DNA of 64,000 nucleotides from Olivibacter jilunii (GTDB lineage: Bacteria; Bacteroidota; Bacteroidia; Sphingobacteriales; Sphingobacteriaceae), in the NCBI RefSeq assembly GCF_900607235.1, contig NZ_LR027851.1:124001-188000 (forward strand), read 5' to 3'. The notes under the pieces are model-generated. The model had not been told where the DNA came from. It did not search any database and saw only the letters and a list, made by a program, of their open reading frames with translations. Position numbers and translations under genes: made by a program. Below, piece after piece: positions 4,596-39,262 of this stretch; the first letter of the stretch is position 1, and the number at the start of each line of letters is the position of its first letter.

Positions 4596-7163
4596 ATGTT
4601 TAAACAAAAGCTACTTTTCCTTTTTCTAATCACACTAATCTCGCAGTTTGTTTTTGCACAGCAAACGGTCACGGGAATTGTTAAAGATGCCAATGATGTG
4701 GCTATTCTTGGTGCAACAGTATTAATAAAGGGTACTAATTTAAAAGCTGTTACTGACGTTAATGGTGAATTCACCATTCAAGGGACAACAACTTTGCCGT
4801 TTACACTTTCTGTCAGTTCCGTAGGATTCAGAACAAAAGAAGTGCAGGTCCAACAGGCGAGTGGAAACAAGTTCAATATTGTATTACTTGCCGATGATTT
4901 CCAGCTTTCAGAAGTTGCCGTAACGGCTAGGCGTCGTACAGAACGTGTGCAAAATGTTCCCATTCCTATTTCTGTTGTCGGCGGAGCTCGTGTTGAAAAT
5001 GCAGGTGCATTCAATGTTAATCGTCTAAAAGAATTGGTGCCAGCGGTGCAATTATATTCATCTAATCCTAGAAATACGACTTTGAATATTAGGGGGTTAG
5101 GTTCGACGTTTGGACTTACGAATGATGGCATAGACCCCGGTGTAGGTTTTTACGTCGATGGCGTCTACTTTGCACGCCCAGCAGCAACTACACTCGATTT
5201 TATTGATGTTGAGCGAATAGAGGTGCTGCGAGGTCCCCAAGGTACGCTATTTGGAAAGAATACGACAGCAGGAGCTTTCAACATCACTACTCGTAAACCT
5301 AGCTTTACACCGGAGGTTAATTTCGAAGCGAGCTATGGAAATTTTGGTTATGTCCAGGCAAAAAGCTCCGTTACCGGTCCCCTGACGAAAAATTTGGCAG
5401 CCCGAGTTTCTTTTTCCGGTACGCAGCGCGATGGTGTATTATATAACGTCGCTACCGATCAAAACGTAAATGATCTTAATAATTTAGGCTTTCGAGGACA
5501 ATTACTTTATGCACCTTCCAATAACGTCAATATTCTATTTGCGGGTGATGTGTCAAGACAGCGTCCCAATGGTTATGCCCAAGTTGTCGCCGGGGTAGTT
5601 CCTACACAAAGAGCAGCTTATCGGCAATTTGAACAAATTATTGCCGATCTGGGATATAATCTACCAAGCCGTAATCCTTTTGATAGAAAAATAGACCACG
5701 ACACACCTTGGCGATCAGATAATGACTTAGGAGGTGTTTCTTTGAATGCAGATATTAAAATCGGATCAGGTACATTGACTTCAACGACCGCGTGGCGATA
5801 TTGGAACTGGAATCCCTCAAACGATCGCGATTTTACAGGGCTCCCAGTTTTATCGCTCTCACAAGCGCCTTCCAAACATCAACAATGGTCGCAGGAAATT
5901 CGCTATGCCGGTGATCTTTCATCCCGTCTAAGTGGAGTGTTTGGTGTTTATGCGATCGGACAACGATTGAAGACAGATCCATACCATACGGAGGAATCAG
6001 GTGCAGCGCAATGGCGGTTCTCGCAAAATTCAACGAGTGATTTATGGGCCACACCGGGATTGCTCGATGGATACGGTATTCGGACATATTCAAAGCTTAC
6101 GTCTTTTAGTGGGGCAGTATTTGGCCAGCTCGACTGGTCGATCACAGACCAAATGCATCTATTGCCAGGACTGAGGTTTAATTACGATGACAAAAAAGTA
6201 GATTTCAACCGCCAAACTTATGGAGGGCTTCAAACCGATGACCCAGCCCTTTTGGCAATTAAAAGAGCAGTTTATACGGATCAGGTATTTAACGCAAATA
6301 CCGATAATACGAATCTTTCCGGCCAACTAACCCTAGCGTATAAACCCAATGATCGTATCAATTCTTACGCTACTTTCTCAACTAACTACAAACCGGTAGG
6401 ACTTAACCTCGGGGGGTTACCTACTAATAACGGTGAGCCAATGCTGGAACTGGCAAAAATTAAACCGGAATATGTTACACATTACGAAATTGGGATAAAA
6501 ACTACTCCTTTGGACAATGCTACTTTAAATTTTTCTGTTTATAATACAGATATCAAAGATTTTCAAACGCAAGTGCAAACCGCGGAAGTAGGCGTAAATC
6601 GTGGTTATTTAGCAAACGCAGAAAAAGTGAGGGTACGCGGAGCAGAGCTTGATGGTAATGTGTTTATTGGCAACGTTTTTTCATTATATGGAGCGCTCTC
6701 GTATACCGACGGTAAGTACATTTCCTTTAAAAATGCACCTGTTCCGTTAGAAGAAACGGGCGGAGAGTCTGCCTTCAAGGATATTTCAGGCGGCAAGCTG
6801 CCTGGAATTTCAAAATGGGCGGGATCTTTAGGTGGACAAGTTGACATTCCGGGTAAATTCCTTACTTTAGGCGGGAGCTACTTTTTCGCGATTGATTCTT
6901 ATTTTCGTTCTTCATTTTCATCGAGCCCGTCTCCATCTCAATATTTAAATGTGGACGGTTATCTTTTACTGAACGCGCGACTCGGGTTTCAAGCGAGTCA
7001 AAGTGTATCGTTCTTTATCTGGAGTAGAAACTTGCTAGATAAAGATTACTTCGAGCAATTGCTTCCCGCTGCAGGCAATGCTGGTCACTATGCTGCTGTG
7101 CTGGGTGACCCACGTACATTTGGAGCGACTATTCGTTACAGTTTTGGTAGAACGGTACGATAG
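4596..7163 (+). CDS. TonB-dependent outer-membrane receptor with N-terminal carboxypeptidase-like domain
   Basis: An 855-residue receptor. The start at 4596 gives a signal peptide ending in SQFVFAQ; a longer frame from 4503 exists but would place about 30 non-signal residues ahead and lies upstream of the promoter box. Domains in order: a CarboxypepD_reg-like beta-sandwich (about 22-105), a plug with GFYVDGVYF and VEVLRGPQGTLFGKN-like residues (IEVLRGPQGTLFGKN), and a 22-strand-type barrel ending in a terminal aromatic-rich strand. No SusD-like gene follows, so it is not a classic glycan SusC; the plug resembles receptors for iron chelates or small organic ligands. Ligand unknown. A strong terminator follows 18 bases after the stop. 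Confidence 0.88.
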   Translation: MFKQKLLFLFLITLISQFVFAQQTVTGIVKDANDVAILGATVLIKGTNLKAVTDVNGEFTIQGTTTLPFTLSVSSVGFRTKEVQVQQASGNKFNIVLLADDFQLSEVAVTARRRTERVQNVPIPISVVGGARVENAGAFNVNRLKELVPAVQLYSSNPRNTTLNIRGLGSTFGLTNDGIDPGVGFYVDGVYFARPAATTLDFIDVERIEVLRGPQGTLFGKNTTAGAFNITTRKPSFTPEVNFEASYGNFGYVQAKSSVTGPLTKNLAARVSFSGTQRDGVLYNVATDQNVNDLNNLGFRGQLLYAPSNNVNILFAGDVSRQRPNGYAQVVAGVVPTQRAAYRQFEQIIADLGYNLPSRNPFDRKIDHDTPWRSDNDLGGVSLNADIKIGSGTLTSTTAWRYWNWNPSNDRDFTGLPVLSLSQAPSKHQQWSQEIRYAGDLSSRLSGVFGVYAIGQRLKTDPYHTEESGAAQWRFSQNSTSDLWATPGLLDGYGIRTYSKLTSFSGAVFGQLDWSITDQMHLLPGLRFNYDDKKVDFNRQTYGGLQTDDPALLAIKRAVYTDQVFNANTDNTNLSGQLTLAYKPNDRINSYATFSTNYKPVGLNLGGLPTNNGEPMLELAKIKPEYVTHYEIGIKTTPLDNATLNFSVYNTDIKDFQTQVQTAEVGVNRGYLANAEKVRVRGAELDGNVFIGNVFSLYGALSYTDGKYISFKNAPVPLEETGGESAFKDISGGKLPGISKWAGSLGGQVDIPGKFLTLGGSYFFAIDSYFRSSFSSSPSPSQYLNVDGYLLLNARLGFQASQSVSFFIWSRNLLDKDYFEQLLPAAGNAGHYAAVLGDPRTFGATIRYSFGRTVR

Positions 7164-38397: not shown

Positions 38398-38405
38398 TAA
38401 ATTTG
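38398..38405 (+). promoter_or_regulatory. -7 promoter element (TAAATTTG) of the tRNA-like gene
   Basis: Perfect TAnnTTTG that ends 13 bases before the tRNA-like gene, where transcription would be expected to begin. Confidence 0.5.
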
Positions 38406-38417
38406 TTCTATAAACAA

Positions 38418-38488
38418 GGTCGGATGGCCGAGCGGTTAGGCAGAGCTCCGCAAGAGATCCCAGAGTGGTTCGAATCCACTTCCGACCT
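38418..38488 (+). tRNA. tRNA-Cys(GCA)-like gene with abnormal anticodon arm
   Basis: A 71-base cloverleaf: 7-base acceptor stem GGTCGGA/TCCGACC, D arm GCC/GGC, T arm AGTGG-TTCGAAT-CCACT and a discriminator T, the Cys identity base. The anticodon is GCA (38450-38452). The anticodon arm is odd: position 33 is C instead of the near-universal T, position 38 is G, and the stem GAGCT/AGATC has one mismatched pair. CCA is not encoded. It may be a diverged second tRNA-Cys or a pseudo-tRNA that can still fold; a normal copy is expected elsewhere. Confidence 0.72.
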
Positions 38489-38550
38489 CAAGTCAGAAAA
38501 ATACTTCTATGTACTTTCTCTACTAGTTGGAGTTCACCTGAATTAATTAA

Positions 38551-38586
38551 ACCGCCCTTGATCACATCATAAAGGACGGTTTTTTT
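38551..38586 (+). terminator. Hairpin 1 downstream of the tRNA-like gene
   Basis: Arms ACCGCCCTT and AAGGACGGT (one mismatch) followed by seven T. First of four similar hairpins between 38551 and 38909. Confidence 0.75.
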
Positions 38587-38621
38587 ACATCGATTCTTAT
38601 GGCAATTTAATATGTGAAGGC

Positions 38622-38710
38622 TAGCTTTGATATTCCACGTGTTCAGTGGTACAGGTAAATTTTTTTCATTCTGTTTGGCCGTCCTTTTTTGAGATTTAAG
38701 GACGGCTTTT
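38622..38710 (+). ncRNA. Possible small RNA unit (promoter box TAGCTTTG to hairpin 2)
   Basis: A perfect TAnnTTTG at 38622-38629 is followed after 48 bases by hairpin 2 (arms GCCGTCCTT and AAGGACGGC, 38678-38706) and a T-run. A transcript from about 38636 would be near 75 bases with no protein frame. There is no -33 TTTG, so the promoter is weak evidence. Confidence 0.25.
38678..38710 (+). terminator. Hairpin 2 of the array
   Basis: Perfect 9-base arms GCCGTCCTT/AAGGACGGC around an 11-base loop, then TTTT. The arm core GTCCTT/AAGGAC nearly repeats that of hairpin 1. Confidence 0.75.
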
Positions 38711-38772
38711 CTTATTTCACCCTAATCTGTCACAACGATATTTGAAGAACAATTCATTATAAGTTCATTTGA

Positions 38773-38809
38773 GCTGCCTCTTTATTTTTTGAAGAGGTGG
38801 CTTTTTTTT
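38773..38809 (+). terminator. Hairpin 3 of the array
   Basis: Arms GCTGCCTCTT and AAGAGGTGGC (two G-T pairs) followed by eight T. Confidence 0.75.
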
Positions 38810-38880
38810 CTTATACGGTATTAATTTCAGAAGCCTACCTTTATCGGTAGCAAGTAATATGATAATTAATGTGTTAGACT

Positions 38881-38909
38881 ACCGCTCAAATTTTGAGCGG
38901 TGGTTTTTT
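38881..38909. terminator. Hairpin 4, shared with the convergent DUF2200 gene
   Basis: Perfect 10-base arms ACCGCTCAAA/TTTGAGCGGT, then GGTTTTTT. Lies 3 bases beyond the DUF2200 stop on the other strand, so it can serve both directions. Confidence 0.75.
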
Positions 38910-38911
38910 CT

Positions 38912-39262
38912 TTATTTTCTTAAAATCTTTTCCATCGTCTTGCCTTTAGCCAGTTCATCCACCAATTTATCCAAATAGCGAATCTTCTGCATGAGTTTGT
39001 CTTCAATTTCTTCCACGCGATATCCACAGATAACACCTGTGATTTTTGAAACGTTCGGATTTATTTGTGGCGCTTGAGCAAAAAAAGTTTCAAAATTTGT
39101 TTTATCGTCGAGGTGTTGTTGCAGCGCGTCTTCATCATATCCGGTCAGCCAGTATATTATTTCGTCAACTTCCGCTTTCGTACGGCCCTTTTTTTCCGCC
39201 TTTTGTATATAATGGGGATATACGCCGGCAAAAGACATTTTGTAAACTCTTGTATTATCCAT
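38912..39262 (-). CDS. DUF2200-family protein
   Basis: A 116-residue soluble protein of the DUF2200 family. Seen: the family start with [37 protein letters not shown], and [26 protein letters not shown]. The start MDNTRV at 39262 is preferred; the frame runs to 39289 but then overlaps the preceding gene by 17 bases. It follows the DHFR-like gene closely on the same strand, so both should be one transcript. Biochemical role unknown. Confidence 0.85.

Follow-up and report, generated by a model that had tools for sequence, protein, structure and literature searches.

An extra tRNA-Cys gene with a rebuilt anticodon arm in Olivibacter jilunii: a candidate auxiliary tRNA with relatives across the Sphingobacteriaceae

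Introduction

A 64-kb stretch of the Olivibacter jilunii genome (G000:C4:124001-188000; hereafter the window) holds a gene that resembles tRNA-Cys in most of its parts and departs from it in the anticodon arm. A preliminary description, made from the sequence, read it as a pseudo-tRNA or as a tRNA-like RNA with another use. The locus therefore raises the question of whether this gene is decaying, serves as an ordinary tRNA-Cys, or makes an RNA that has at least partly left translation.

There are precedents for the last of these. Staphylococcus aureus has extra tRNA-Gly isoacceptors beside its normal ones, and these are thought to escape translation (PMC4052509). The Bacillus cereus RNA tRNA-Other is likewise said not to function in translation, and is linked to oxidative stress genes (PMC3399842). 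A literature search among open-licence papers found no cysteine counterpart of these translation-escaping extra tRNAs.

Results

The window copy is a complete cloverleaf with a changed anticodon arm

Read directly, positions 38418-38488 of the forward strand form a complete, stand-alone tRNA-Cys(GCA)-like gene (tRNA positions 1-73), which could be aligned with 27 relatives. ARAGORN calls tRNA-Cys(gca) at 38418-38489, the sole tRNA that it finds in the window, in agreement with the cysteine identity first proposed. All seven acceptor pairs are present (GGTCGGA/TCCGACC), as are the three pairs of the D stem (GCC/GGC) and the five of the T stem (AGTGG/CCACT). The anticodon GCA lies at 38450-38452 and the discriminator T73 at 38488; U73, G34, C35 and A36 are named among the identity elements of bacterial tRNA-Cys in PMC9976931. 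The gene thus shares its cloverleaf, GCA and U73 with the canonical bacterial elongator tRNA-Cys(GCA), and its acceptor stem is identical to that of the canonical copy of the same genome.

The window copy differs from the canonical elongator in the variable region, in the sequence upstream and in the anticodon arm (38443-38459). Position 33, which is U in an elongator tRNA-Cys, is C (38449), and the anticodon stem, GAGCT (38443-38447) with AGATC (38455-38459), is not fully paired, with a mismatch at G38445·A38457 (29·41). The loop reads CCGCAAG, with G38 at 38454; C32 and G38 could pair, which would leave a five-base loop, CGCAA. The perfect acceptor, D and T stems with T73, and the C33, G38 and single stem mismatch, had all been listed in the preliminary description and were confirmed by direct reading. 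Single-sequence folding of the window copy did not return the cloverleaf.

The source genome has a canonical tRNA-Cys and several further copies

The preliminary description had allowed that the gene might be the working copy of a genome with no other tRNA-Cys, or that its unusual bases were misread. The first does not apply: the genome has one canonical tRNA-Cys (C6:380410, loop CUGCAAA), so the window copy is an extra gene. The anticodon arm GAGCTCCGCAAGAGATC is found at three separate sites of the genome (the window, C2:1003286 and C3:374980) and at two places in another species, which makes a misread base very unlikely. An exact search for this arm in named genomes gave nine stretches, two of them from Olivibacter sp. 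XZL3; the other seven, from unrelated taxa or without a name, are probably due to chance. A further Cys-like gene of the source genome (C13:134497, loop CUGCACG) is more divergent.

The scores of these genes were compared, as had been proposed with the first description. With the Rfam tRNA model, the canonical copy (L004) scored 57.4 bits and the C3 sister (L003) 41.3 bits. Three genes, namely the window copy (L001), its C2 sister (L002) and the divergent copy on C13 (L005), were not reported even at E 0.1, an outcome that may stem from the model or its filters. At the gathering threshold, Rfam gave no match in the window, and the window copy was absent from the 46 matches listed by a whole-genome search with the tRNA model (150 of 387 candidates scored). 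A permissive Rfam search of the five loci gave three matches to other families, far below the gathering scores of those families, and these are taken as chance.

C33 is also found outside tRNA-Cys. Among the 30 distinct tRNAs in the 30 best-scoring loci of the source genome, 29 have U33; the exception is tRNA-Val(GAC) (C5:200534-200608; L025 1501-1576), which has C33 in the loop TCGACAA and is otherwise perfect. Its 17-base arm is also present in three other genomes (G438, G442 and G480; arm match only), and similar arms elsewhere have T at this position. Because a tRNA-Val of the same genome has it, C33 alone is no proof of exclusion from translation. In yeast, mutation of U33 is reported to impair translation markedly, and U33C and U33A in a tRNA-Gln lead to a starvation-type growth form while U33G has no effect on this phenotype (PMC3664417), suggesting that a tRNA altered at position 33 can serve as a nutrient signal.

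Many sampled Sphingobacteriaceae genomes have extra tRNA-Cys genes

A DNA search of 100 relatives gave matches in 90, mostly one per genome and several with more. A tRNA-Cys pattern matched 291 of 301 Sphingobacteriaceae genomes, many with two to six copies among the matches listed. When a base other than U33 was demanded, 44 copies were found in 29 of 399 family genomes (9 of 25 genera); of 395 genomes drawn from the class, two matched, one being the source genome, although different D arms may account in part for the few matches outside the family. In these patterns the spacing, the motif TTCRA and parts of the D arm are fixed, and they miss copies with other spacing, such as the canonical copy of G059 and a G004 copy with a shorter D loop (L083), the latter lying outside the anticodon-blind search, acceptor count and alignment described below.

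Since patterns that require GCA cannot show that GCA is conserved, an anticodon-blind search was run for that purpose in 34 genomes, mostly picked for having extra copies. GCA was present in 108 of 108 matches. At least one extra was found in 33 of these genomes, with G142 having the canonical copy only, and exactly one canonical copy in 32, where canonical is defined by the loop CUGCAAA and the canonical loop is therefore uniform by definition. The canonical copy of G059 has one extra D-loop base, and no canonical copy was found in G195, which is 68% complete. The 76 extras vary in the loop: position 33 is U in 37, C in 36, A in two and G in one (non-U in 39 of 76); position 37 is A in 71, U in four and C in one, and thus a pyrimidine in five; and position 38 is A in 36, G in 27, U in 11 and C in two, so that 40 are without A38.

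We divided the extras roughly, by loop string. Class A, to which the window copy belongs, has the loops CCGCAAG, ACGCAAT, CTGCAAG, TCGCAAG or TCGCAAA, and class B comprises all other extras. Species differ in how many class-A copies they have, from none to three. Class-A genes occur as dispersed single genes and, in G008, G032 and G048, as tandem arrays with three or five members spaced 89-94 bp. The arrays of tRNA-Cys-like genes in three species, with three (L109 8999-9257), five (L110 9000-9436) and five (L111 8814-9259) members, occupy the same place, downstream of a gene that looks by eye like SPT. A near-identical tRNA-Cys-like gene with the loop ACGCAAT is part of cargo shared by three genera (L112 8000-8071, L113 10466-10537 and L114 10990-11061), where it lies just before, or overlaps, a YggS-like ORF; L112 also has an integrase-like ORF and L114 a relaxase-like one (all by eye). 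This type has therefore probably moved. No integrase- or relaxase-like gene was seen by eye near the window copy.

The acceptor end and the discriminator were surveyed in 127 fetched copies, of which 14 are canonical, 32 belong to class A and 81 to class B. All 14 canonical copies have a perfect acceptor, as do 30 of 32 class-A copies and 17 of 81 class-B copies. Among the class-B acceptors, 31 fail solely at 1·72, 28 need one bulged base, which in 24 of them is an A at one common site, and five fail in other ways. T73 is nonetheless kept in 32 of 32 class-A copies and in 78 of 79 readable class-B copies, or 110 of 111 readable fetched extras overall. Non-U33, pyrimidine 37, the 1·72 mismatch and the bulge are all absent from canonical copies, as seen in 14 acceptors and, for the loop, by definition. 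We infer that most extras carry a change expected to hurt their use by EF-Tu or the ribosome; a count by eye gave 11 of the 81 class-B copies with both acceptor and loop free of defects.

Class-A genes show covariation and are conserved against diverged flanks

In an alignment of 28 class-A rows, which are related sequences rather than independent events, the named cloverleaf is paired in 96.6% of cells, and support for the cloverleaf rests on this named-structure pair count. The covariation score was 0.447, compared with at most 0.144 for slid structures, and none of 500 shuffles scored as high; two of the five covariation measures were weak, with 34 and 112 of the 500 shuffles reaching the same level. 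RNAalifold returned the acceptor and anticodon helices from this alignment but paired the D arm with the T arm, and so gave no cloverleaf. One row (L085) is shifted by one base, so that its pair 1-72, a T·C mismatch, is counted as a gap. G18 and G19 are invariant. Positions 32-38 are CG in 20 rows, AU in six, UA in one and UG in one, a distribution that is partly circular because rows were chosen by loop string; such pairing would add a sixth pair to the anticodon stem, and the remaining loop would be of the CGCAA type. Among class-A rows, only the five dispersed copies of G195 (L122-L126) lack both of the T-stem pairs 50-64 and 51-63.

The C2 copy of the source genome (L085) and a copy in another species of the genus (G003:C94, L079) are syntenic, each lying between a gene of 1219 aa, purL-like by eye, and a TonB-type receptor, also named by eye. 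The two tRNAs are identical at 69 of 71 bases. The long flanking blocks are 71-79% identical, with one 48-bp block at 98%. In the 160 bp next to the tRNA, identity is 54% on one side and 51% on the other, and shuffled sequences give 51%. If divergence is 21%, the chance of seeing no more than two changes in 71 bases is about 1e-5. The window copy differs at one of 71 bases from a second G003 copy (G003:C100, L078); the two have about 75 bp upstream in common and are 82% identical over 147 bp including the tRNA. A related glycosidase-type gene lies some way off in both loci, but L132 has one too, and the other neighbours of the two loci differ, so orthology of the window copy and L078 is a possibility only. 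The conservation of the syntenic pair indicates purifying selection.

The window copy has a promoter-like box, and no neighbour common to class A was seen

The putative promoter element TAAATTTG (38398-38405, forward strand) ends 12 bases before the tRNA, in line with the TAnnTTTG box of the preliminary description. It fits TAnnTTTG, which we take to be the Bacteroidota-type promoter consensus. By eye, such a box ends 12-15 bases before the tRNA in seven of seven Olivibacter class-A copies, and five of these also carry TTGTG farther from the gene on that side, an arrangement that differs from the four canonical copies shown. A sigma-70 scan gave one promoter-like site in this region, at 38584-38613, and none at the tRNA.

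Upstream of the window copy lies a divergent ankyrin-type ORF, and downstream lie four hairpins and a convergent ORF; there is no close same-strand gene. The hairpins are all on the forward strand, roughly 100 bp apart between 38544 and 38912, and could end several small RNAs. The first, terminator-like and with a T run (38544-38587), and the second, followed by a T-rich stretch (38678-38712), were found as inverted repeats and are not listed by the terminator scan. The terminator-like third (38771-38811) and fourth (38876-38912) were found by both methods.

Here each ORF is the longest one called, and genes lacking a Pfam match were named by eye. On this basis, no neighbour common to class A as a whole was seen among 45 recurrent-neighbour clusters and the nearest genes, and no sulfur gene was seen by eye among the nearest ORFs of class-A copies, including the window copy. 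At L078, an RtcB-like RNA ligase gene (5185-6615, by eye) lies on the opposite strand, 112 bp from the tRNA-Cys-like copy.

Two candidate partners were considered and rejected. The source genome has two CysRS matches and only one is over the cut-off, which speaks against a second CysRS as partner. Peptide aminoacyl-tRNA ligases (PEARL, LanB-type) would need a Cys-tRNA donor. All five Olivibacter genomes have their family PF04738, although two of them (G001 and G002) are without class A. The family is absent from G008, G032 and G029, all of which have class A, and therefore does not track class A in the genomes searched (G048, G059 and G195 were outside this search).

Many class-B copies lie behind thiol and sulfur genes

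Class-B surroundings were surveyed for 42 copies in 40 loci, which were chosen from the listed matches of the tRNA-Cys pattern in the 301 family genomes after the trend had been noticed in other loci (the listed copies G029:C24, G034:C12 and G044:C10 were left out). A same-strand ORF ends 7-47 bp upstream of 26 of the 42 copies; on the downstream side, one begins within 50 bp in only five. Among 32 distinct same-strand genes within 150 bp upstream, 16 matched AhpC-TSA, six Aminotran_5 (of the cysteine-desulfurase type by eye), three Peptidase_S10 and one FGE-sulfatase, and nine had a 1-Cys peroxiredoxin C-terminal domain. Neither AhpC-TSA nor Aminotran_5 was among the best 25 of 60 families for 40 far genes of the same loci, where at most one of each could be hidden; FGE-sulfatase occurs once there.

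Other class-B flanks include DUF4395, an ABC ATPase with a NIL domain (MetN type), a Cys/Met PLP enzyme and a sulfatase, and an NlpA lipoprotein gene lies 450 bp from the C13 copy of the source genome. PhyH, PBP_like_2, SusD, peptidase S51, carbonic anhydrase and one protein without a family are found as well. Many class-B copies thus look like the cotranscribed tails of thiol and sulfur genes. Since no sulfur gene was seen by eye beside class-A copies, the sulfur link reaches the window copy by kinship only. Inverted repeats such as TCTACT-N5-AGTAGA, possible operators by eye, precede class-B tRNA genes at L131 and L134.

Discussion

Judged by its sequence, the window copy is a real and conserved gene and not a dying pseudogene. 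Of the two options first put forward for it, an RNA with another use fits the data; a decaying copy does not, given the conserved body, the promoter-like box and the covariation. Our preferred reading, which we hold tentatively and a little short of calling it probable, is that the window copy is a functional auxiliary tRNA-Cys, charged by CysRS and partly withdrawn from elongation, with a role in cysteine and sulfur homeostasis.

The gene would have its own promoter, and the RNA made from it would be processed in the manner of a tRNA. As GCA and U73 are kept, it would be expected to be loaded with cysteine by the single CysRS. The rebuilt loop, with C33, a G38 that can pair with C32, a mismatched stem and loss of the A36-A37-A38 run, would make it a poor partner for the ribosome, and a pool of Cys-tRNA would thus stand partly apart from elongation. 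Other lesions, namely the 1·72 mismatch or the acceptor-stem bulge, seem to have much the same outcome in relatives. Because many of them look like tails of thiol and sulfur genes, a role in cysteine and sulfur homeostasis is likely under this model, and such a pool could be used as a read-out or reserve of cysteine status or as a dedicated cysteine donor.

The main rival is a plain extra tRNA-Cys that still decodes UGC and UGU, perhaps slowly, and supplies more Cys-tRNA for cysteine-rich or thiol proteins. Two facts that count against an auxiliary role speak for it: U33 is kept in 37 of the 76 extras, and the same genome has a tRNA-Val(GAC) with C33 whose arm recurs in three other genomes of the class. 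The class-B copies without a defect and the unchanged phenotype of U33G in yeast also count against an auxiliary role. The complete cloverleaf with GCA and the apparent cotranscription of many class-B copies with thiol genes would suit it as well. However, copies that only raised the dosage should have retained the canonical sequence, and the extras carry lesions not seen in the canonical copies (14 acceptors, with the loop fixed by definition). We therefore consider this explanation unlikely, while still giving it real weight.

Could the RNA rather be a decoy, which an anticodon nuclease, toxin or phage factor would cut or bind instead of the true tRNA-Cys? Class-A changes do sit in the anticodon stem-loop, there are several copies as well as tandem arrays, and an RNA ligase-like gene lies on the other strand close to the possibly orthologous G003 copy. 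Yet class B mostly alters the acceptor and not the loop, and no recurring nuclease, toxin or phage gene was seen by eye in the 45 neighbour clusters and nearest genes, so that a decoy seems improbable.

There is similarly little to recommend a cis-acting or RNA-level regulator, in which the fold would mark or stabilise an RNA end or serve as a source of fragments, and cysteine loading would be incidental. The short distance between class-B copies and the ORFs before them and the four hairpins behind the window tRNA would be consistent with it, as is the B. cereus pseudo-tRNA, thought to work inside a larger regulatory RNA (PMC3399842). It would leave unexplained why every extra in the blind search has GCA and nearly all have U73, and no same-strand gene lies near the window copy. 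A decaying pseudogene or dispersed repeat without function, as the stem mismatch, the silence of the Rfam tRNA model and the varying number of class-A copies might suggest, is highly improbable, since the genes have not drifted freely with their flanks, covary, and keep GCA, T73 and the promoter-like box.

An auxiliary tRNA-Cys would resemble the non-proteinogenic tRNA-Gly of S. aureus in being an extra isoacceptor beside a normal copy. The two differ in the amino acid, cysteine here and glycine there, and in the means: in S. aureus the EF-Tu contact pairs and G18G19 are changed (PMC4052509), whereas the tRNA-Cys extras keep G18 and G19 and are altered in the anticodon arm (class A) or mostly at the acceptor end (class B). 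The B. cereus tRNA-Other is one gene at the flank of an island and part of a larger RNA (PMC3399842); here there are several copies, with cysteine identity intact.

For the family as a whole, a broader proposal is possible, and we put it forward with more doubt than confidence. The Sphingobacteriaceae may have evolved, by several separate routes (a changed loop, a 1·72 mismatch or a bulged acceptor), a second, non-elongator class of tRNA-Cys that kept charging and shed use by the ribosome, with many members wired to genes for peroxiredoxin, thioredoxin, cysteine desulfurase, methionine uptake and sulfatase, as a system for sensing cysteine status or delivering cysteine. A genetically tractable branch has been reported for the relative Pedobacter (PMC12181424). 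If the proposal is true, annotation programs would count such genes as ordinary tRNA-Cys, as ARAGORN does, and in a bacterial family the supply of cysteine would be linked to thiol metabolism through tRNA.
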